From: Archaeoglobales archaeon
GTDB lineage: Archaea > Halobacteriota > Archaeoglobi > Archaeoglobales > Archaeoglobaceae
Direction: 5' to 3'
NCBI GenBank assembly: GCA_011605865.1
Contig: JAAOZI010000003.1
Location: forward strand, 62,001-126,000
DNA length: 64,000 bases
Made by a program: the position numbers and the translations under genes. Below the pieces are notes generated by a model, which searched no databases, was not told where the DNA came from, and worked only from the letters and a program-made list of their open reading frames with translations. The number at the start of each line of letters is the position of its first letter. The first letter of the stretch is position 1. This document shows, piece by piece, positions 52,500 to 63,709 of this stretch.

Positions 52500-53747
52500 T
52501 TAATTTACAAAACCTCGCCCTTTAGGTAGCCTGCCGGCAAGATCTCGGATTGCATTCAGAATCTCGCTTTCGTTTTTTACAATTATGGACTTCGAACTGA
52601 TTTCTGAATAGATTTTTTCGGCCATCTCTCCTGCGAAATTCCTACTCCTAATTTCACTTCTTTCGACTACAATCAGCTTTCCGAGCTTTGCCGCCAGATT
52701 TGCGGCAATTAGATTTTTCAAGTTTCCCCTTCCAATGCTCAGATTTGCCAGAATGACAAAGTCAGCTTCTTCAACCATTTTCAGGTTTTTTTCATGGTTC
52801 TCATCGCTTATATCGCTGAAGGGAGCTTCTGAAACTACCTCGCATCCGAGCTCGGTTGCAATTTCCCAGTCGCTGTCGAGGACATTGAGAACTCCGGCGG
52901 AAACTCTGTATCCGGCCTCCACGAGCGTCTGTATTATTTCCGCCCCGCTTCCGCCACCGCAGATTACATGAACGCGAATACCGTTTTTCGAACTCTTTGC
53001 GACCGGAATCACTATAACGGATTTTCCAATCTTCCTGACAGCCACGTCAACACCGTAAACTTCCCTGACGGATTCAGGAGTTATGACGTCTTCAGCCTTC
53101 CCCGCGCGATGGACTTCCCCGTTTTTGAGCATCAAAATCTTGTCGGAAAACGTCGCCGCCAGATTTATGTCATGCATGGCTATTATTGCTGAGCAGCCGT
53201 TTTCAACTCGCCGCTTGATCAACCTCATTACCTCTATCTGGGATGAAAGATCCAGATGTGCAGTTGGTTCATCTAGGAGCATCACTCTAGGTTCCTGCGC
53301 AAAAAGCCTTGCTAGCATCACCTTCTGTTTTTCTCCGCCGCTCAGCTCATCGAATATCCTTTCCTCAAATCCCCGAAGTCCCACCTCATTCAGCGCATTC
53401 AAAGCTATTTCGTAATCCTCCTTTTTGGCCCTCCTTATTCCGCTGAGATGCGGTGTTCTGCCGAGCAAAACAATGTCTATAACCCTCAACCTCGTCTGCG
53501 GTATTTCCTGTGGAAGGTAGGCTGCGATTTTTGCAATATCATCGAATTCGAGTCTTTTCCCGTCGAATAGAACAACGCCCTTCAGAGGTTTTAGAATCCC
53601 GAAAATTGTCCTGAGCAAGGTTGATTTTCCGCTTCCGTTCGGGCCCAGAATGGACAGAATCTCCCCTTCCTCGAGTTTGAGCGTAACGTTTTTCAGTATC
53701 TCCCTACTCCTCAGTTCGACTCCAAGATCCCTTATTTCAAGCCTCAT
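52500..53747 (-). CDS. btuD: ABC transporter ATP-binding protein, BtuD type, with C-terminal extra domain
   Basis: ATPase of a FecCD/BtuCD-type importer, 415 residues. The first ~255 form a normal ATP-binding domain: GPNGSGKST (Walker A), DELSGGEKQKVMLARL (signature), MLLDEPTAHLD (Walker B) and HDINLAATF (switch His). The last ~150 form a separate Rossmann-like domain starting VHVICGGGSGAEI, as in archaeal BtuD relatives; its role is unknown. ATG 53747 overlaps the stop of the permease (ATGA). A longer frame upstream lies inside the permease gene. The neighbouring btuF and DUF4430 genes point to corrinoids, although iron chelates are not excluded. Confidence 0.88.
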   Translation of the reverse strand: MRLEIRDLGVELRSREILKNVTLKLEEGEILSILGPNGSGKSTLLRTIFGILKPLKGVVLFDGKRLEFDDIAKIAAYLPQEIPQTRLRVIDIVLLGRTPHLSGIRRAKKEDYEIALNALNEVGLRGFEERIFDELSGGEKQKVMLARLFAQEPRVMLLDEPTAHLDLSSQIEVMRLIKRRVENGCSAIIAMHDINLAATFSDKILMLKNGEVHRAGKAEDVITPESVREVYGVDVAVRKIGKSVIVIPVAKSSKNGIRVHVICGGGSGAEIIQTLVEAGYRVSAGVLNVLDSDWEIATELGCEVVSEAPFSDISDENHEKNLKMVEEADFVILANLSIGRGNLKNLIAANLAAKLGKLIVVERSEIRSRNFAGEMAEKIYSEISSKSIIVKNESEILNAIRDLAGRLPKGRGFVN

Positions 53748-54682
53748 AGCCCGCGTTTCAGTATGTAAAGGAAGAAGGGTGAACCGAGGATCGCGGTCAT
53801 GGCTCCAACAGGGATTTCCCCGCTTGTGCATGTTCTTGCAAGCAGATCTACCAGAGGCATCAATGTGGCGCCGAACAGAATCGCGGAGGGCAGCAGTCTT
53901 TGATGGGCCTCGCCGAAAATCAGCCTCATTGTGTGAGGAACGATTATTCCAACAAAACCTATAATCCCGCAGACGGCAACGGTTGCAGACGTTAAAAGCG
54001 ATGTTACGGCAATGAGCTCTTTTCTGAACCTCTCAACATTTATCCCAACCGATCTTGCATGCTCTTCGCCCAGCAGTATTGCATTTAGGTTCCAGGAATT
54101 GAGCAGCAGATAGGTAATTCCTATGAAAAATGGGATTATTATAAGCCATATCTTCTGCCATACGGCCCTTGAAAAACTGCCCATTATCCAGAAGATGATT
54201 TCATGAGCGCTTTGTTGCGAGAAGTATATAATTATTGCGGTAAGCCCGGAAAGAAATGAAGAAACTGCAATTCCGGCCAGAAGCACCGCATAACTTTCTC
54301 CATGCCTTCCGAGTCTGTAGACAGTGAAGGAGACGATCAATGAGGTTATGAAGGCTGAAATTACGATGTTCCACGTGCTTCCTATTCCTAGGGAGATAAC
54401 GAGTGCAGCACCAACACTGGCTGCGCTGGAAACACCCAGAATGTATGGGTCGGCAAGGGGATTGCGGAAGAACGCCTGCATTGCGCATCCAGCAGATGCC
54501 AGCGATGCTCCGACCAGCATCGCTAGAAGAACTCTCGGCAGCCTGTAGTCGAGGACAACTGTTTGCATTAGGGGATCCTTAAAGTCAATAAATCCCGCTG
54601 GGCCGAAAGATATGCCTAGAATTAGTGAGATCGCGCATGCGAGCAGCAGCGCAGCGGTTTTTGCAAATTTCACAAGTAACAT
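53744..54682 (-). CDS. btuC: ABC transporter permease, FecCD/BtuC type
   Basis: A 312-residue membrane permease of the FecCD family with about nine or ten transmembrane segments. Signatures: DYRLPRVLLAMLVGASLASAGCAMQAFFRNPLADPYILG (read in parts; the classic RLPR and NPLADP blocks), GIVVPHTMRL-like GIIVPHTMRLIFG, and GEIPVGAMTAILGSPFFLYIL at the end. It is the first gene of the minus-strand btuC-btuD pair and diverges from the surface-protein genes. Confidence 0.92.
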   Translation of the reverse strand: MLLVKFAKTAALLLACAISLILGISFGPAGFIDFKDPLMQTVVLDYRLPRVLLAMLVGASLASAGCAMQAFFRNPLADPYILGVSSAASVGAALVISLGIGSTWNIVISAFITSLIVSFTVYRLGRHGESYAVLLAGIAVSSFLSGLTAIIIYFSQQSAHEIIFWIMGSFSRAVWQKIWLIIIPFFIGITYLLLNSWNLNAILLGEEHARSVGINVERFRKELIAVTSLLTSATVAVCGIIGFVGIIVPHTMRLIFGEAHQRLLPSAILFGATLMPLVDLLARTCTSGEIPVGAMTAILGSPFFLYILKRGL

Positions 54683-54773
54683 GAAGCATGAGTCAAATAA
54701 ACTTTACTATGGAAATAAAAAAATCTTGATTTCAAACCAAAAAGTTTTTAATTCATGAGTCCTCTTTTCCTTC
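54683..54773. promoter_or_regulatory. Divergent btu promoter with repeated CATGAGTC
   Basis: CATGAGTC occurs at 54689-54696 and 54753-54760, once in each promoter between the TATA-like element and the start codon (AGTTTATTTG for btuC on the minus strand, AGTTTTTAATTC for the plus-strand gene at 54774). The first copy extends to the palindrome TGAGTCA. Sites at equivalent positions of both promoters suggest a common repressor. No cobalamin riboswitch-like structure was recognised. Read by eye; inference. Confidence 0.45.
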
Positions 54774-56603
54774 ATGAAGCTCGCAATCGCATACCTAATA
54801 CTTCTTTCACTGGCATCTTTAGCCAGTGCGAATGCTTTCCAAGGAGATGTATCGCATCTTGGGAACTTTTCATCGAGCATCGATGGGCAGGTAATCCCAA
54901 AACTCGAGTGGAAGACTTATATAAGCGGGCTCGTGGGAGCACAGCCAGTGTATAGCAATGGAAAAATTTTCGTGACAAATTGGTATGGCTGGAGCGAATG
55001 GGAACCGGGATTATATGTTTTGAATGCGAGTAACGGAGAAATTTTGAAGAATTTCAGCAACATCCAGGGGGCATCAACGCCATTCGTTTATGAGGACAAG
55101 GTTATAGTCGGTGGAATGAAAGGAAAAGGGGGTTATTTGGGTTACCTTTACATAGTAAACCTAACAACTTCCGAAGTTAAAGAAATTCTGCTCGATACGC
55201 AGGAATCGTGGTACGGTGTAGCCTCTTCTCCAGTTGTCCACAATGGGAACATTTACGTTTTAACGCACTCGAATGGAACTCTCTGGAAAATTTCGATTGA
55301 TGGAAATATTCTCAACAAATTTACCACGGGAGGAGAAATAAAACCCTATACTTCCCCTGTTGTCGGCAATGACTTGATATGCTTCGCTGGAAACAGGAGC
55401 GGAAATGCCATTTTCTGCGTTAACGAAAGCCTTTATGAAATCTTCAATATAAGCGTTGACTCCAAGATAACGAATACGCCTACGCTTTACAACGACCTTC
55501 TGATCTTTGCAACAGAAAAGAAGCTTTATTTTGTAAACGTTACAGAAGGAAATGTTGTTAAAACAATGGATTTCAATGGATCCCTTTCTAGCGCTGCGAT
55601 TGGAGATTTCATCTATATTGGCTCCAGAGATGGAAAACTTTACGCGATAAACAAGACAACGCTTGAAGTTAATTGGACTTTTGAAGCGAATGGGAAAATA
55701 GACTCCTCACCGGCCTTTGCAAATGGTGTTGTTTACTTTGCAACGAACGTTCAGGAAGGTACAATCTATGCTGTCAGGAATGGCAAAGAGCTCTGGCATT
55801 ACACCTTGAAACCCCCTGAAAATAAATACTACAACATAATGTCATCCCCCTTCATTGCTGAAGGAAAACTGTTTATCGGAGCTGATAGCGGCTATGTTTA
55901 CTGCTTCAACTCAACTGGAACGATGGAGTTCAAAGTTACGCTTTCCCCTGGAAATATAACCTTGGATGGGAGAAAAATCAGCGGGACGTCAGCGCTTGCT
56001 GCACTTTACGAGGCATCGAGATATCGGCTAGAAGACGCCGAAATCGTCTTTAGCTTGAATGTCAGCTGGTATAACAATTCTGCTTTTGTCAATTCCATAA
56101 TGGGTCTCGAGCCAAGCCCTGATTGGTTATGGGGGTGGTCTATCTGGAATTCGACAGCTCCACTTGTCTCTGCCAGCTCATATCTCTTGCAGAATGGTGA
56201 AACGATCTATTACTGCTACGGATGCTCCACACTTCCCGGGCCTGGGAATTCGACGGTTGTTCTGGAGATAACAGCGAATGTTAGACCTCTGGGAATCAAT
56301 GATTTCGTGGTTTCAAATGGAGCAAGGGGAGGAAATGCTACAGCTTACATTAATGTAACAGCAGCCGAGGAAAACTGGTTCCTGGCAGTTGTCAGCGGCA
56401 TTAACGAAAAAGGAGATTACGTTGCCGGGATATCAACTTTTTATCTCAGCAAAGGCGGTGAGTTTAGCGTTCCCGTTCTGATACACATCCCGCAGAGAAA
56501 TGAAGCGGGAAATTACACTCTTTATGCAGCGGTTTACAGGCTGAATGAGTATCCAAACAATTTCATAGCAATTTCTCAGCCCAGAATTTGTAGGGTGAGC
56601 TGA
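54774..56603 (+). CDS. Secreted PQQ-type beta-propeller protein with DUF4430-like C-domain
   Basis: A 609-residue extracytoplasmic protein: signal peptide (KLAIAYLILLSLASLASANA), a PQQ/quinoprotein-type beta-propeller (about 40-390; repeated blades such as GKIFVTNWYG, GNIYVLTHSNGTLWKI, DGKLYAINKTT, SGYVYCFNSTG-like GYVYCFNS), then a domain (about 405-500) matching the DUF4430 pattern: ITLDGRKISGTSALAALYEAS ... WLWGWSIWN ... ETIYYCYG. A final beta domain follows. It is cotranscribed with the next two genes (1-nt and 4-nt overlaps) and divergent from btuCD. A role in capturing corrinoids at the surface is inferred. Confidence 0.75.
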   Translation: MKLAIAYLILLSLASLASANAFQGDVSHLGNFSSSIDGQVIPKLEWKTYISGLVGAQPVYSNGKIFVTNWYGWSEWEPGLYVLNASNGEILKNFSNIQGASTPFVYEDKVIVGGMKGKGGYLGYLYIVNLTTSEVKEILLDTQESWYGVASSPVVHNGNIYVLTHSNGTLWKISIDGNILNKFTTGGEIKPYTSPVVGNDLICFAGNRSGNAIFCVNESLYEIFNISVDSKITNTPTLYNDLLIFATEKKLYFVNVTEGNVVKTMDFNGSLSSAAIGDFIYIGSRDGKLYAINKTTLEVNWTFEANGKIDSSPAFANGVVYFATNVQEGTIYAVRNGKELWHYTLKPPENKYYNIMSSPFIAEGKLFIGADSGYVYCFNSTGTMEFKVTLSPGNITLDGRKISGTSALAALYEASRYRLEDAEIVFSLNVSWYNNSAFVNSIMGLEPSPDWLWGWSIWNSTAPLVSASSYLLQNGETIYYCYGCSTLPGPGNSTVVLEITANVRPLGINDFVVSNGARGGNATAYINVTAAEENWFLAVVSGINEKGDYVAGISTFYLSKGGEFSVPVLIHIPQRNEAGNYTLYAAVYRLNEYPNNFIAISQPRICRVS

Positions 56604-58999
56604 TGAAGGTCTTGAAGATTTTGATATTCCTCTCCCTTATTTCAATTCCAGTTTCGGCCCTCCAGCTGCAAGTCGTTGGAAACTGCGTCGGGGAGGAATT
56701 CAGAATTTCCGTGGAAAAGCAATCAATTTTCGTAATTAGAATAAATAACGGAACACCGATTTTTGCCGAGGGAAAGGAGGTCGTTTTCAGACCGCAGGTC
56801 GAGGGATATTTGAGGATCACTGCGATTTCCGGAAACGAAATCGAGGAAAAGGTCGTGAACGTTTCACTGTGTCCTCAGCCTCAGAGGACAGTTACCGGCA
56901 CAACTACTGGAATCCAGTCGCTCCCTTCCGGGAGCTTTGAAAAAGTGGTCGACGGAAAAAGCTACAGCATCGAATGGAGAACAGCATTAGGAGCTTTGGA
57001 GATGGCATCAAGGATAAAAGGTTTTTCGTACAGCCTGAAGGCAACGGACTGGGGTCTTTTTGTTGACTGCATAAAGGGCATCTGCTCAGGCTATGCTGGA
57101 AAAACGTCTGGATGGATGTACTGGGTGAACTATCCGAAGGATCCGCTTCCCGGAACTGCTGCACAGAACTACAGAATAAAGCCGGGAGACGTTGTGACAT
57201 GGTACTTCTCTATGGGAATGAGCGATACACCTGAAACCTCGCAGTTCATAGTTAGGATTTACATTGGAACAGACTACGGAATTTCCGTGCAGCTCAAATG
57301 GGAAGAGAACATTAAGCCCATAGCGGACTTCGACTTTTATCCGGAGAATCCTGTTGAGGGCGAGGAAATTGTATTCAACGCTTCTAAATCCTTCGATCCC
57401 GATGGATTCATAACCGACTATTTGTGGGAGTTTGGCGATGGCGAAATTGCATCTGGAGAAGTCGTGAAGCATGCTTACAAAAAAGCCGGGTTCTATAGGG
57501 TTAATCTGACCGTTTGGGATAACAACGGTGCATCGAATTCCGTTTCAAGAACACTGAAAGTGGGAGAAAAGAAGAAGGAAGTGGAATGGCTTGAATTTCG
57601 CGGAATTTCGATAGAGACGAATCTGGGAACTTTAAAGAGGATAGAATTCAAAGCTACTCAGCCGCTTGAGGTTAAAATTCGGAAAGCGGGTGTTCCAGAA
57701 ATAATCTATGCGGATATCTACGAATGCTTTGAAATCCGGGTAAAAGATAGCGTTCAGGCCGAACTGTTTTTCGAGATTCCGAAATCCTGGGGAGAAGTGG
57801 ATTTTTACAAGTACAACGGCAGCTGGGTGAAGCTGAAAGCTGAGCTCATAGAGAAGGATGAAAATCTCACATTCAAGGTTTTCATTGATTCTTTCAGCTA
57901 TATAGCCGTAGCAAAGGATTGGAAGAACTTCCCGCTGAAGGAAGGGGATTTGAGGATAGTTAAAGCCTTGGAATATCTGAAGGGTCTGCAGAGAAGCAGC
58001 GGAGGTTTTGCAAATCCGGGTGAGGAGGAAAGCATCGCAAAGACTTCATGGGCCATCATGGCAATTGCTGCAGCAGGCCAAGATCCGAGAAGCTGGACTA
58101 AAGAGGGCAAAAATCCGCTGGACTACATCAGAGAAAAGCTTCCTGAAGAAATTGATAGAATGGGTACGGCCGACTATGCAAGAACAATTCTTGCCCTATA
58201 CGCGGCAGGAGAGGATCCGAGGAATTTTTCGGGAATCGATTTAGTTGCTAAGCTGAAGGGGAGAATGAGGGAGAACGGGCAGATAGGAGACTTCGTTTAC
58301 ACAACGATCTGGGAGATAATAGCACTTTCGGCAGTAGGAGAGAACGTTAGCAAGTCTGCTGAATGGCTAAAGGCTCAGCAGAATCCGGATGGAGGTTTCC
58401 CCTGGACACCAGGTGAGCAGAGCGATTTCGATGACACTGCAGCTGCAATTCAAGCCCTTGTGGCTGCAAAAGAGCCAAGAAACTCTGAGGTGATTAAGAG
58501 GGCCGTTGAATACCTCAAAACGGGCCAGAATGATGACGGAGGAATGAGATATTTCGGAAGCTCTGCGAGCAATGCTGCAAGCGATGCTTGGACAATTCAG
58601 GCTTTGGTTGCCGTTGGGATAAATCCGATGGAATGGAGGGCAAACAACTCGAGCGTTGTCGATCATCTGCTTGCTTTGCAGACAGAACAGGGATATTTCA
58701 GGTATACCAGTTACAGCGATGAAAATCCCGGATATATGACTGTCTGCGCGGTAATATCGCTGCTGGGAAAACCCTTCCCAATAAAACCTGTAAAAGTTTT
58801 GGAAGTCAAAGAAATACAGATAGAAAAAACAACTCCGGCCCCTCTGGAAACTCCGGCTGTTCAACCGACTCCAGAAAAAACAGAAACTCCGGTAAACATA
58901 ACATCCAAGACTCCAGTTGAAAGAACGCCTGGATTTGAGGTCTTTGCGGCATTACTAGCAATTGCATTTGTCATCGCTTTGAGGGCTGTGAGGAGATGA
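56603..58999 (+). CDS. Surface protein: DUF4430, PKD, PGF-pre-PGF, prenyltransferase-like barrel, PGF-CTERM
   Basis: A 798-residue exported protein. Order: signal peptide (VLKILIFLSLISIPVSA); DUF4430 (about 112-206: TALGALEMASRIKGFSY, SGWMYWVNY, YRIKPGDVVTWYFS); PKD (about 232-325: FNASKSFDPDGFITDYLWEFGDG); a PGF-pre-PGF-like domain (about 335-440); an alpha/alpha-barrel of prenyltransferase/squalene-cyclase repeats (about 448-715: LKGLQRSSGGFANP, LKAQQNPDGGFPW, LKTGQNDDGGMRYF); a Pro/Thr linker; and a PGF-CTERM signal (TPGFEVFAALLAIAFVIAL, then RAVRR) for archaeosortase processing. DUF4430 plus an alpha/alpha-barrel are the two domain types of intrinsic factor and transcobalamin. It is overlapped by btuF. 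The function (corrinoid binding at the surface) is inferred. Confidence 0.8.
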   Translation: MKVLKILIFLSLISIPVSALQLQVVGNCVGEEFRISVEKQSIFVIRINNGTPIFAEGKEVVFRPQVEGYLRITAISGNEIEEKVVNVSLCPQPQRTVTGTTTGIQSLPSGSFEKVVDGKSYSIEWRTALGALEMASRIKGFSYSLKATDWGLFVDCIKGICSGYAGKTSGWMYWVNYPKDPLPGTAAQNYRIKPGDVVTWYFSMGMSDTPETSQFIVRIYIGTDYGISVQLKWEENIKPIADFDFYPENPVEGEEIVFNASKSFDPDGFITDYLWEFGDGEIASGEVVKHAYKKAGFYRVNLTVWDNNGASNSVSRTLKVGEKKKEVEWLEFRGISIETNLGTLKRIEFKATQPLEVKIRKAGVPEIIYADIYECFEIRVKDSVQAELFFEIPKSWGEVDFYKYNGSWVKLKAELIEKDENLTFKVFIDSFSYIAVAKDWKNFPLKEGDLRIVKALEYLKGLQRSSGGFANPGEEESIAKTSWAIMAIAAAGQDPRSWTKEGKNPLDYIREKLPEEIDRMGTADYARTILALYAAGEDPRNFSGIDLVAKLKGRMRENGQIGDFVYTTIWEIIALSAVGENVSKSAEWLKAQQNPDGGFPWTPGEQSDFDDTAAAIQALVAAKEPRNSEVIKRAVEYLKTGQNDDGGMRYFGSSASNAASDAWTIQALVAVGINPMEWRANNSSVVDHLLALQTEQGYFRYTSYSDENPGYMTVCAVISLLGKPFPIKPVKVLEVKEIQIEKTTPAPLETPAVQPTPEKTETPVNITSKTPVERTPGFEVFAALLAIAFVIALRAVRR

Positions 59000-59916
59000 A
59001 GAAGGCAGTTTTAATATTCCTATTTGTTTTCCTATCCTTTTGCGTTTCTGAAAATTTGCCGGATAAGGCATACGTAGTCGATGATACAAATTATACGGTC
59101 AAGGTTGAGGGAATTCCGAAAAGGATAGTCTCTCTCGCTCCAAGCAACACGGAAATACTCTTCGCAATAGGTGCTGGTGAGCAGGTTGTTGGAGTTACCG
59201 ACTACTGCAATTACCCCCCGGAGGTCCTCGAGCTTAAAAAAGAGGGAAAGCTGAAAACTGTTGGTGGGTATTCCACTGTCAACATCGAGCGGGTTATGGC
59301 ACTGAAGCCGGATCTCGTTGTTGGAGCCTATGGCAATGGGCTTCAGACGATAGAGACGATGAGGGCTTTCGGACTGAAAGTTGTGGCATTCAATCCAAAG
59401 AATCTATCCGATGTTATGGAAAGCATAGTTAAGATTGGAAAGCTAACAGGTCACGATCGGGAAGCATCGGAAGTTGTGGAGGATATGAAAAGAAAAATAG
59501 AAGCTGTAAAAAATGCTGTTTCTGGAAAAAAGAGGGTTAAAGTTGCGCACATTTTATGGCACGATCCAATTTTTGTGAGCGGGAGAAACACATTTATAGA
59601 CGAGTTGATCCAGGTTGCGGGAGGGGAAAACGCGTTTGCATTCGACGGCTGGAGAGCTGTAAGCGTTGAAGACATAATTTCCGCAAATCCTGAGTTGATA
59701 GTCGTCAGCAGCGGAACCGGAATGGGCAGGGGTGAAGATGTGGTATACAAATGGGTTATAAGCGATCCCTGGCTAAAAAATGTTGAAGCTGTGAAGAATG
59801 GAAGAGTTTTTGTCATCGATGCGGACATAATATCGAGGCCCTCTCAAAGATTGGGCGATGCTGCAGTTGAGCTTGCAAGGATTATCCATGGAGTTGTAGT
59901 TTCAAATTCCCAGTAG
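58996..59916 (+). CDS. btuF: ABC transporter substrate-binding protein, BtuF type
   Basis: A 306-residue periplasmic-binding protein of the BtuF/FecB fold, delivering corrinoids (or another chelate) to BtuCD. N-terminal signal with a cysteine (FLFVFLSFCVSENL, lipoprotein-like). Fold markers: PKRIVSLAPSNTEILFAIGAGEQVVGVTDYCNYPPEV (read in parts), KPDLVVGAYGNG, and ANPELIVVSSGTGMG with ISRPSQRLGDAAVELARII at the end. The ATG overlaps the previous gene by 4 nt, so binding protein and surface proteins are coexpressed. Confidence 0.9.
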   Translation: MKKAVLIFLFVFLSFCVSENLPDKAYVVDDTNYTVKVEGIPKRIVSLAPSNTEILFAIGAGEQVVGVTDYCNYPPEVLELKKEGKLKTVGGYSTVNIERVMALKPDLVVGAYGNGLQTIETMRAFGLKVVAFNPKNLSDVMESIVKIGKLTGHDREASEVVEDMKRKIEAVKNAVSGKKRVKVAHILWHDPIFVSGRNTFIDELIQVAGGENAFAFDGWRAVSVEDIISANPELIVVSSGTGMGRGEDVVYKWVISDPWLKNVEAVKNGRVFVIDADIISRPSQRLGDAAVELARIIHGVVVSNSQ

Positions 59917-60016: not shown

Positions 60017-60076
60017 ATTGAAGTTGGAAAGTTTCTATATATTTAACAAAGATGCAATTGAACTTTGGTGAGGGGG

Positions 60077-61054
60077 ATGAGGTGGGTGCTGCTTGTAGTT
60101 GCATTAGCGTTACTCGCAACGGTTCCGGCAATCGCGGCAAGTCCGGATGAAAAACCGGGAGTAGGAAAGGCATTTGGTGCCGGAAAGGGAGATGAAATCA
60201 GGGAAAAAATGTTCCAGGAGCGTAAGGAGATGATGACGACATGGCTGCAGAATTGCGATAGATGGATGGAGAGACTTCGAGCGAGGGTTGAGGAATCAAA
60301 CATCGGTCAGGAATCAAAGCTAAGGATACAGGAGAGAATAAACAATGTGGAGAACAGGATAAATGAAATCAAGGCCAGAATAGGGAGTGCAAAAGACTAC
60401 GATGAACTCAGAAATGCAACGAGAGAAAGCAAGGAAATATGGCTGGGAATTTCTAAAGAGATGAGAATGATAGCGTATGAAAATTACGTCTCGCACATTG
60501 ATAATGTTCTTCGAAAACTCGATGAAATTGCTGACCGCTTTGAGAGCTATGGACTGGATACTACGCAGTTGAGAAATGCCATAAACGAAGCAAATTCAAC
60601 ATTGCAAAGTGTCAGGGAAAAGATGGCCGGAGGCACTGTTACACCGAAGGACATTGCGGAGCTGAATAAGAAGGTGATGAACGCTTTTAATGAAGCGAAG
60701 AGACTTGCTAGGGAGTACAAGCCCAAGCCCAGCGACGGAATCCTTATGGCAAATGTTAATGGAAACTTCACCCTTACCGGAAACATGACGGCGCTTATAA
60801 AGGGAAATGGAGAGCTCCATGCTACTGCAACTGCCAAAAGCGAGTCAAAAGGAGCGGCAGAAAGGATTGAGGCTCTCGTTGTAAGGGGAAATGTAAATGT
60901 TAATGGCAATGGTACTTTCAAGATAGTGGCGCATGGAAACGGAACCCTTACCTTAAACGATGGGAGCGCGAGTTATGTATTCAAGCAATGCGTAAACCAG
61001 AAGTTTGTAAATGGGACTTTGAGCAAAGGAGAATCTATAAGCTTCGGGTGTTGA
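60077..61054 (+). CDS. Secreted coiled-coil protein, uncharacterised
   Basis: A 325-residue exported protein: signal peptide (WVLLVVALALLATVPAIAA), a long charged helical region of about 190 residues (EKMFQERKEMMTTWLQNCDRWMERLRARVEE... read in parts) likely forming coiled coils, then a C-terminal beta-rich region with repeated N-G sequences (VNGNFTLTGNMTALIKGNGE, VNVNGNGTFKIVAHGNGTL) and a final cysteine. ATG 60077 has the GGTGAGGGGG Shine-Dalgarno; the phased AAGC array and TATA lie upstream. A lipoprotein gene follows by 3 nt. Confidence 0.75.
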   Translation: MRWVLLVVALALLATVPAIAASPDEKPGVGKAFGAGKGDEIREKMFQERKEMMTTWLQNCDRWMERLRARVEESNIGQESKLRIQERINNVENRINEIKARIGSAKDYDELRNATRESKEIWLGISKEMRMIAYENYVSHIDNVLRKLDEIADRFESYGLDTTQLRNAINEANSTLQSVREKMAGGTVTPKDIAELNKKVMNAFNEAKRLAREYKPKPSDGILMANVNGNFTLTGNMTALIKGNGELHATATAKSESKGAAERIEALVVRGNVNVNGNGTFKIVAHGNGTLTLNDGSASYVFKQCVNQKFVNGTLSKGESISFGC

Positions 61055-62614: not shown

Positions 62615-63709
62615 TCACTTTTTTCCGAATTCCTTAGCGAGTTTCTCTATCTGATCCCTTGTTAAGGGTTCTGCACAGCATATCTGCATGGCGTCCGAGC
62701 TGCTCTTCAGGTACGTCCAGTTATATGGCTCGGGTTTTACCGGATTGGACGGATCGCCAATGTATGTGATGTAGTCAAACTTCAGCGCATCTTTCCAGTC
62801 TGGCGGTAGTGGAACGACTCCTTTTACGGAGGACATCATTTTTCCGCTCTCGTTCCACTTTGTCATGGTTATCTTTCCGGTGCTTAGGTACTCCTTTAGT
62901 GGTTCGCTTCCGTGGCACTCGCTGCACTCCTTTGGCTTGCCTATTGCATGGGTGTAGAAGGGCTGGATCGTTACAAAAGTCTTATTTCTATACACCGCAG
63001 TCATGTAATTTGCAGGATAAACCTTTCCCTGGAAGTTCACGAGTATTTCGAATCCCGCTAGCGGTCTGAAGGATCTCTTTTGGTGTTTCTCCGCACTATC
63101 GAGATGGCAGTTGTAGCAGCTTATAACAGAGGTTTGATGGCATGATGTACAGTAAACCTTTCCGTGCAATATATGTGCGGGATTGCTCTTGTATTCGTGG
63201 CAGTTCTCGCATTTCACCATAGTCTCTCTTTTAAGCAGAGTCGGATAGTGCTTTCCGTCCCCCATTATATCTTCTTTGCTATGGCAATCAATGCACTTCA
63301 TACCGGCCGATCTGTGAACGTCGGTGAGGTTTAGAACGGCTATCTCTGTTTTCTGTCTAGCATGGCAAGCTAGGCACCTCGAATCGTCAACTTTGTCTCC
63401 GGGGGTTACATGGCAATCGTAGCAGTCCGGGACATAATTTTCAGTTACAATCGGCTCTCCATTTGCCTTCTTTTCTGCATGGCATTTTATGCAGCCAAAC
63501 TCGTCAATCGGTTTTCCGGTTATCAGTTCTGCACCTCCGTTTTGGGCGGAATAAAAAGTGATCTTGCCCTGTCTTGTGTAATGGAGACTTGTAGGAAAAT
63601 TCTTGGCCCAATCTGTTTTCTTCTCAACCTGTACTTGCGGTTGAGGTTGAGCGCAGGCGAAAAGCAGTGCAATTGGAATCAAAATCAGGGCAATTTTCCA
63701 TTTCCTCAC
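62615..63709 (-). CDS. Octahaem c-type cytochrome lipoprotein
   Basis: A 364-residue multihaem cytochrome with eight CxxCH motifs: CIKCH, CYDCH, CLACH, CIDCH, CENCH, CTSCH, CYNCH and CSECH. The N-terminus (KIALILIPIALLFACAQ) is a signal with a lipobox-like cysteine. A GTG at 63709 is the likely start, with CTTATATAC about 28 nt upstream. A 62-nt gap separates it from the upstream membrane cytochrome gene, which probably passes electrons to it from the quinone pool; the terminal acceptor is unknown. It converges on aIF1A, 1 nt apart. Confidence 0.9.
   Translation of the reverse strand: MRKWKIALILIPIALLFACAQPQPQVQVEKKTDWAKNFPTSLHYTRQGKITFYSAQNGGAELITGKPIDEFGCIKCHAEKKANGEPIVTENYVPDCYDCHVTPGDKVDDSRCLACHARQKTEIAVLNLTDVHRSAGMKCIDCHSKEDIMGDGKHYPTLLKRETMVKCENCHEYKSNPAHILHGKVYCTSCHQTSVISCYNCHLDSAEKHQKRSFRPLAGFEILVNFQGKVYPANYMTAVYRNKTFVTIQPFYTHAIGKPKECSECHGSEPLKEYLSTGKITMTKWNESGKMMSSVKGVVPLPPDWKDALKFDYITYIGDPSNPVKPEPYNWTYLKSSSDAMQICCAEPLTRDQIEKLAKEFGKK

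Follow-up and report, generated by a model that had tools for sequence, protein, structure and literature searches.

The membrane-anchored surface protein described here, encoded in a stretch of 64,000 nucleotides from an Archaeoglobales genome (“the window”), is likely to be the capture protein of an archaeal uptake system for corrinoids (B12-type compounds). Its sequence and genomic context make extracellular capture of B12-like molecules very probable. The protein unites a DUF4430 domain and an alpha/alpha toroid, which are the domain types that bind cobalamin in transcobalamin. To our knowledge, corrinoid collection by archaea with an S-layer and without an outer membrane is little studied beyond BtuCDF. 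Hosts of the system include Archaeoglobus, ANME-1 relatives and methanogens, the core carbon metabolism of which is corrinoid-dependent. The system constitutes a defined protein set, several members of which occur as natural fusions, that is open to direct testing and is relevant to the ligand of the archaeal versions, which was called into doubt in 2007.

Domain Architecture and Predicted Fold

The toroid protein and its genomic surroundings are compiled in Table 1.

Table 1. Features of the corrinoid uptake locus predicted in the window (positions in the window).
Feature	Position	Strand	Details
BtuD-type ATPase	52500..53747	-	Best model “corrinoid ABC transporter ATPase”
BtuC-type permease (FecCD family)	53744..54682	-	Best permease model BtuC
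Divergent intergenic region between btuC and propeller gene, 91 bp	54683..54773		Without Rfam riboswitch
Partner protein, 609 aa	54774..56603	+	Signal peptide, PQQ-type propeller, DUF4430-like domain, C-terminal beta domain
Surface (toroid) protein, 798 aa	56603..58999	+	Signal peptide, N-terminal beta domain, DUF4430, PKD, beta domain, toroid, PGF-CTERM-like tail
Signal peptide, residues 1–19, MKVLKILIFLSLISIPVSA	56603..56659	+	Position inferred; helix 2–13 in the model
DUF4430/SLBB domain, residues 104–226	56912..57280	+	Cys pair C156/C161
PKD domain, residues 238–317	57314..57553	+	Pfam; only part of the family has PKD
PGF-pre-PGF-like beta domain, residues 330–439	57590..57919	+	AlphaFold2 model; TIGR04213 in relatives
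Alpha/alpha toroid, residues 440–732	57920..58798	+	Pfam and model; SDxDDT motif at 607–612
PGF-CTERM-like sorting and membrane tail, residues 775–798	58925..58996	+	Sequence; PGF_CTERM in relatives
BtuF-type substrate-binding protein (Peripla_BP_2)	58996..59916	+	Pfam

Pfam matches above the respective cut-offs were obtained for DUF4430 (PF14478; residues 127–203, E 2.9e-8, 34.5 bits against 23.8), PKD_4 (residues 238–317, E 1.1e-21) and, at about residues 576–720, SQHop_cyclase_C (1.8e-11) and Prenyltrans (1.2e-10). The toroid contains Q-x3-G-G/Y-F repeats (LQRSSGGF, QQNPDGGF, GQNDDGGM, LQTEQGYF). The AlphaFold2 model, calculated from 19 input sequences (mean pLDDT 83), resolves the DUF4430 region, the PKD sandwich and the beta domain at residues 330–439, and has 12 helices at residues 450–720, which is the count of an alpha6/alpha6 barrel; given a pTM of 0.57, the relative placement of the domains is unsure. 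Pfam and AlphaFold2 agree in placing DUF4430 and an alpha/alpha barrel with QxxxGGF-type repeats in one protein, as the initial annotation had read from the sequence, and an attempt at refuting this pairing failed, since the predicted fold contains both parts. The toroid is the best-kept part of the family (75% mean column identity versus 64% for DUF4430); in its own genome, a profile search found a single DUF4430 above the threshold.

The remaining modules of the initial annotation fared somewhat differently. While PKD stands on the Pfam match, PGF-pre-PGF is supported by family evidence, TIGR04213 being matched in 18 of the 19 family members (best 2e-16), although the window protein taken alone gives no call. 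The PGF-CTERM-type end is evident from a PGF motif followed by a hydrophobic stretch and basic residues, and PGF_CTERM is matched in 6 of the 19 family members.

When the DUF4430 profile is compared with solved structures, transcobalamin-1 (4kki) ranks first (E 0.0068), by virtue of a WGxYIxCIxGxC stretch, the two Cys residues of which hardly vary among the archaeal sequences; the motif CIKGIC of the window protein is common to human transcobalamin-1. Cobalamin_bind (PF01122) matches 15 of the 19 toroids at E values up to 10 (best 4e-5), with the window toroid remaining below the cut-off (17.7 bits versus 25). The best 50 Foldseek matches of the full-length model comprise cyclases, prenyltransferases and thioester domains, but not transcobalamin; with its list taken up by generic toroids and Ig-rich complement proteins, this search has little power to detect transcobalamin. 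We infer that the toroid protein may be likened to transcobalamin in function, while by threshold it is not a PF01122 member. The best NCBIfam relative of the toroid is SCO2321, for which the literature searched yielded no useful publication. One family member also gave weak matches to models of unrelated small domains, which were taken as chance.

Operon Organization and the Propeller Partner

The propeller gene shares its final base with the start of the toroid gene, and the toroid gene overlaps btuF by 4 bp; the overlap of the latter two and the divergence of the toroid gene from btuCD, both noted before, are confirmed by the coordinates. Peripla_BP_2, FecCD permease and ABC ATPase genes are present together at the locus, the start of btuD probably being Met29 of the listed open reading frame, where relatives start.

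The upstream propeller-DUF4430 gene is a part of the operon that the first reading missed. Its product consists of a propeller (about residues 30–385), a DUF4430-like domain (about 386–503) and a C-terminal beta domain, without a membrane tail. In the window, this DUF4430-like domain is a divergent second DUF4430 domain; among relatives it exceeds the Pfam threshold, with two copies in the protein of locus L044 and four in that of L052. The propeller resembles BamB, tetrathionate hydrolase and 8-bladed designs, the best structural matches being 8-bladed.

Further genes in the window include one for an exported, coiled-coil-rich protein of 329 aa without a confident family just 3' of btuF (60065–61054, plus strand) and one for a multihaem cytochrome c (Cytochrome_C7-like, 364 aa; 62615–63709, minus strand).

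A Conserved Archaeal Cluster

Some part of the toroid protein is matched in 47 of 60 related genomes, in many of them via PKD only. Across 29 neighbourhoods, the propeller, toroid and BtuF genes recur together, joined in many Archaeoglobaceae by BtuC, BtuD and a gene for a protein of 186–208 aa. The latter is CbiZ (adenosylcobinamide amidohydrolase), by which archaea salvage corrinoids (PMC3541065).

Of the 72 loci retrieved from 84,980 species genomes, 43 are archaeal. According to the locus DNA, BtuF lies at most 1.3 kb downstream of the toroid, or in the same chain, in 39 of the 43 archaeal loci (nine fused), an outcome in favour of the co-occurrence with btu genes that had been proposed as a check. 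Within the same DNA, the propeller is likewise found in 39 loci, BtuC in 22, BtuD in 15 and CbiZ in nine, where it is located between BtuD and the propeller gene. Two of the four archaeal loci without BtuF stop at contig ends (L071, L102); the real exceptions, L062 and L070 (from the relatives G008 and Mnemosynella), have BtuF-type genes elsewhere in the genome, not beside the toroid. In two single-contig genomes, the BtuF of the operon is the sole Peripla_BP_2 gene, so that its adjacency to the toroid is not due to chance, and, because relatives in several archaeal orders keep the same gene order, this order is far beyond chance.

The distribution of the domains over polypeptide chains varies. 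ANME-type archaea carry DUF4430 and toroid on separate, adjoining genes (L086, L088, L089), and in Methanomicrobiales (L090–L097, L103) the toroid is fused to BtuF, with the DUF4430 domains on the propeller protein. This shuffling of the same parts between chains argues that DUF4430, toroid, BtuF and propeller act together. The single toroid-BtuF chains of L090, L091, L093–L097 and L103 mostly measure 651–688 aa, and the propeller proteins beside the fusions of Methanomicrobiales bear up to four DUF4430 domains. An ANME-like propeller/DUF4430/toroid/BtuF cluster is also present in a record titled Candidatus Nitrosotalea (L100); it nests with Methanophagales in the tree, and the contig is probably mis-binned.

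The toroid-BtuF fusions, together with the PKD/PGF-type scaffold domains, could alternatively indicate that DUF4430 and toroid are structural or docking modules which hold BtuF at the S-layer, with the corrinoid bound by BtuF only; the capture step is, after all, a prediction. We consider such a purely structural role very improbable, given that both domain types bind cobalamin in transcobalamin, that the conservation of the toroid exceeds the needs of a scaffold, and that bacterial toroids and DUF4430 domains are found beside ECF-like ATPases without a BtuF match.

Bacterial Relatives and Regulatory Evidence

The bacterial loci supply evidence for a corrinoid role that is regulatory in nature and independent of the archaeal importer annotation, since cobalamin riboswitches precede the bacterial relatives. 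Rfam detects this riboswitch in 14 bacterial loci, 11 of which belong to the group of 16 bacterial loci that match the toroid strongly, and the gene directly 3' of it is usually that of the toroid; in the window itself, none is found at the gathering threshold. The gene order in L106 (Syntrophomonadaceae) is riboswitch, DUF4430-SLH, DUF4430, toroid, membrane protein and double ATPase, the membrane protein occupying, and being assigned by, the CbiQ position; the double ATPase of L111 carries a fused CbiQ domain. Across the two domains of life, one and the same capture module is combined with ECF-like transporters in bacteria and with BtuFCD in archaea.

In the toroid tree, the archaeal sequences group together with a support of 82/59, which is not strong. 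Nearest to them are Clostridia and Syntrophomonadaceae; the riboswitch-linked toroids of Chloroflexota/Actinomycetota are further off. An Anaerolineae locus (L109:649-3696) encodes three tandem toroids (917 aa) directly 3' of a cobalamin riboswitch.

The toroid sequence is nearer to squalene-hopene cyclases (E 6e-21), which are its closest solved sequences, than to intrinsic factor (about 1), and its SDxDDT motif (SDFDDT; 58421–58438), which does not vary among the Archaeoglobi sequences compared, falls on the catalytic DXDD of these cyclases in the alignment. Given this alignment, the toroid might be an enzyme, e.g., class II terpene-cyclase-like, a proposal to which we attach hardly any credence. 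The toroid protein is exported and membrane-anchored, in methanogens it is fused with BtuF, and no prenyl-substrate gene occurs among the neighbours tested; moreover, the motif is lost in several riboswitch-linked bacterial relatives, which have DTNTT instead, while the riboswitch-controlled toroid of L106 retains it (SDADDTA) beside an ECF-like transporter. The squalene-hopene cyclase models remain far below their cut-offs (TIGR01507, 27.2 bits versus 431; TIGR01787, 42.7 versus 322.7). On the basis of genomic context, export signal and these family cut-offs, a terpene cyclase identity was rejected.

Host Corrinoid Metabolism and the Nature of the Ligand

The host genome (84% complete) contains CbiC and CbiB as well as CdhD/E-type subunits and B12-binding domains, which are users of corrinoids; no CbiZ was detected. 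CbiC is present in most relatives; as regards auxotrophy, these are mixed. The organism may, thus, make its own corrinoid and, because it keeps CbiC, the system more likely serves salvage or remodelling than the needs of an auxotroph; with CbiC and CbiB encoded, this genome does not support an explanation by auxotrophy. We infer that importing and rebuilding foreign corrinoids can still spare a producer some cost, and the CbiZ genes within the operons of relatives speak for corrinoids despite own synthesis. Two genomes of one class (G038 and G039, Candidatus Mnemosynella; L046, L070) contain the propeller and the toroid gene and lack a CbiC match, BtuF not being adjacent in G038; these could be true corrinoid scavengers.

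That the host and most of its relatives encode CbiC would also suit another metallo-ligand or cofactor (heme, siderophore, F420 precursor, cobalt chelate) in conjunction with a FecBCD-like importer. Such a ligand is in line with the doubt concerning B12-making archaea found in the accessible text of Burroughs et al. (PMC1796856), and homologs of BtuF and BtuC are hard to separate from siderophore or heme systems (PMC2667541). F420-0 and heme ABC models match, too. The equivalog cut-offs for BtuFCD-type genes are not reached; the best permease model is BtuC and the best ATPase model the corrinoid ATPase. These best models speak against a different ligand, as do CbiZ, which is specific to corrinoid salvage and lies inside the cluster in nine loci, and the cobalamin riboswitches of the bacterial relatives; we, therefore, regard it as unlikely and retain a corrinoid as the predicted ligand.

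Proposed Mechanism of Corrinoid Capture

The anchored corrinoid-capturing role that had been predicted from the outset finds support in genomics, i.e., btu linkage, BtuF fusions and bacterial cobalamin riboswitches. Outside the membrane, DUF4430 and toroid would close around the corrinoid as in transcobalamin, within one chain in the window protein and between chains where the domains sit on separate proteins. The propeller-DUF4430 protein would join as a secreted partner, and the corrinoid would be handed to BtuF, docked next to the toroid, for import by BtuCD. In relatives with CbiZ, imported foreign corrinoids may then be cut back to cobyric acid and rebuilt. To the full version of this scheme we assign about an even chance: a three-part machine in which propeller-DUF4430 and DUF4430-toroid close round the corrinoid, partly between chains, with direct handover to a docked or fused BtuF, amounting to a carrier of the transcobalamin type that feeds an ABC importer.

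Relation to Previous Work and Known Systems

As far as its accessible text goes, the study of Burroughs et al. 2007 (PMC1796856) describes the fusion of SLBB (DUF4430) and toroid in either order in extracellular proteins with Ig-like and propeller fusions, includes an Archaeoglobus member with Ig-fold domains, predicts B12 scavenging for the family, and suggests that the archaeal ligand is perhaps not B12, since archaea make B12. The swapped domain order emphasized by the initial annotation is, hence, real and was already published in that text. The annotation's statement that no characterised example is known is fair for archaea, but the pairing, the swapped order, the Archaeoglobus member and, as a prediction, the scavenging role were already in print (PMC1796856). 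The same text ties the SLBB family to CbiO/CbiQ (ECF) genes and contains neither a btuCDF/cbiZ linkage nor a toroid-BtuF fusion. Relevant work retrieved under the name DUF4430 concerns vertebrate B12 binders only, subscription papers and preprints being outside the scope of the search. As far as the open literature shows, the archaeal btuCDF/cbiZ link, the toroid-BtuF fusions, the exchange of ECF for BtuFCD and the conserved propeller-DUF4430 partner are apparently new.

Human transcobalamin, intrinsic factor and haptocorrin are composed of the same two domain types as the window protein. In contrast to these carriers, the latter has the reversed order, the two domains being separated by about 240 residues that comprise PKD and a beta domain, is membrane-anchored and coupled to an ABC importer, and its toroid is nearer to squalene-hopene cyclases by sequence.

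BtuG of Bacteroides, a 7-bladed lipoprotein occurring only in Bacteroidetes (PMC6143338), is, like the partner protein, a surface propeller in a B12 uptake locus; this likeness is restricted to the way of working. The partner propeller is PQQ/BamB-like with 8-bladed designs as best matches, and homology to BtuG was rejected, BtuG2 (3DSM) being absent among the best 60 sequence and best 50 structure matches listed.

Closest on the importer side is the BtuCDF system that Halobacterium sp. NRC-1 possesses (Woodson et al. 2005, as cited in PMC5282855), reported to be an archaeal type II ABC corrinoid importer, a type to which the window importer is predicted to belong; in the window, the importer is accompanied by surface DUF4430, toroid and propeller proteins.
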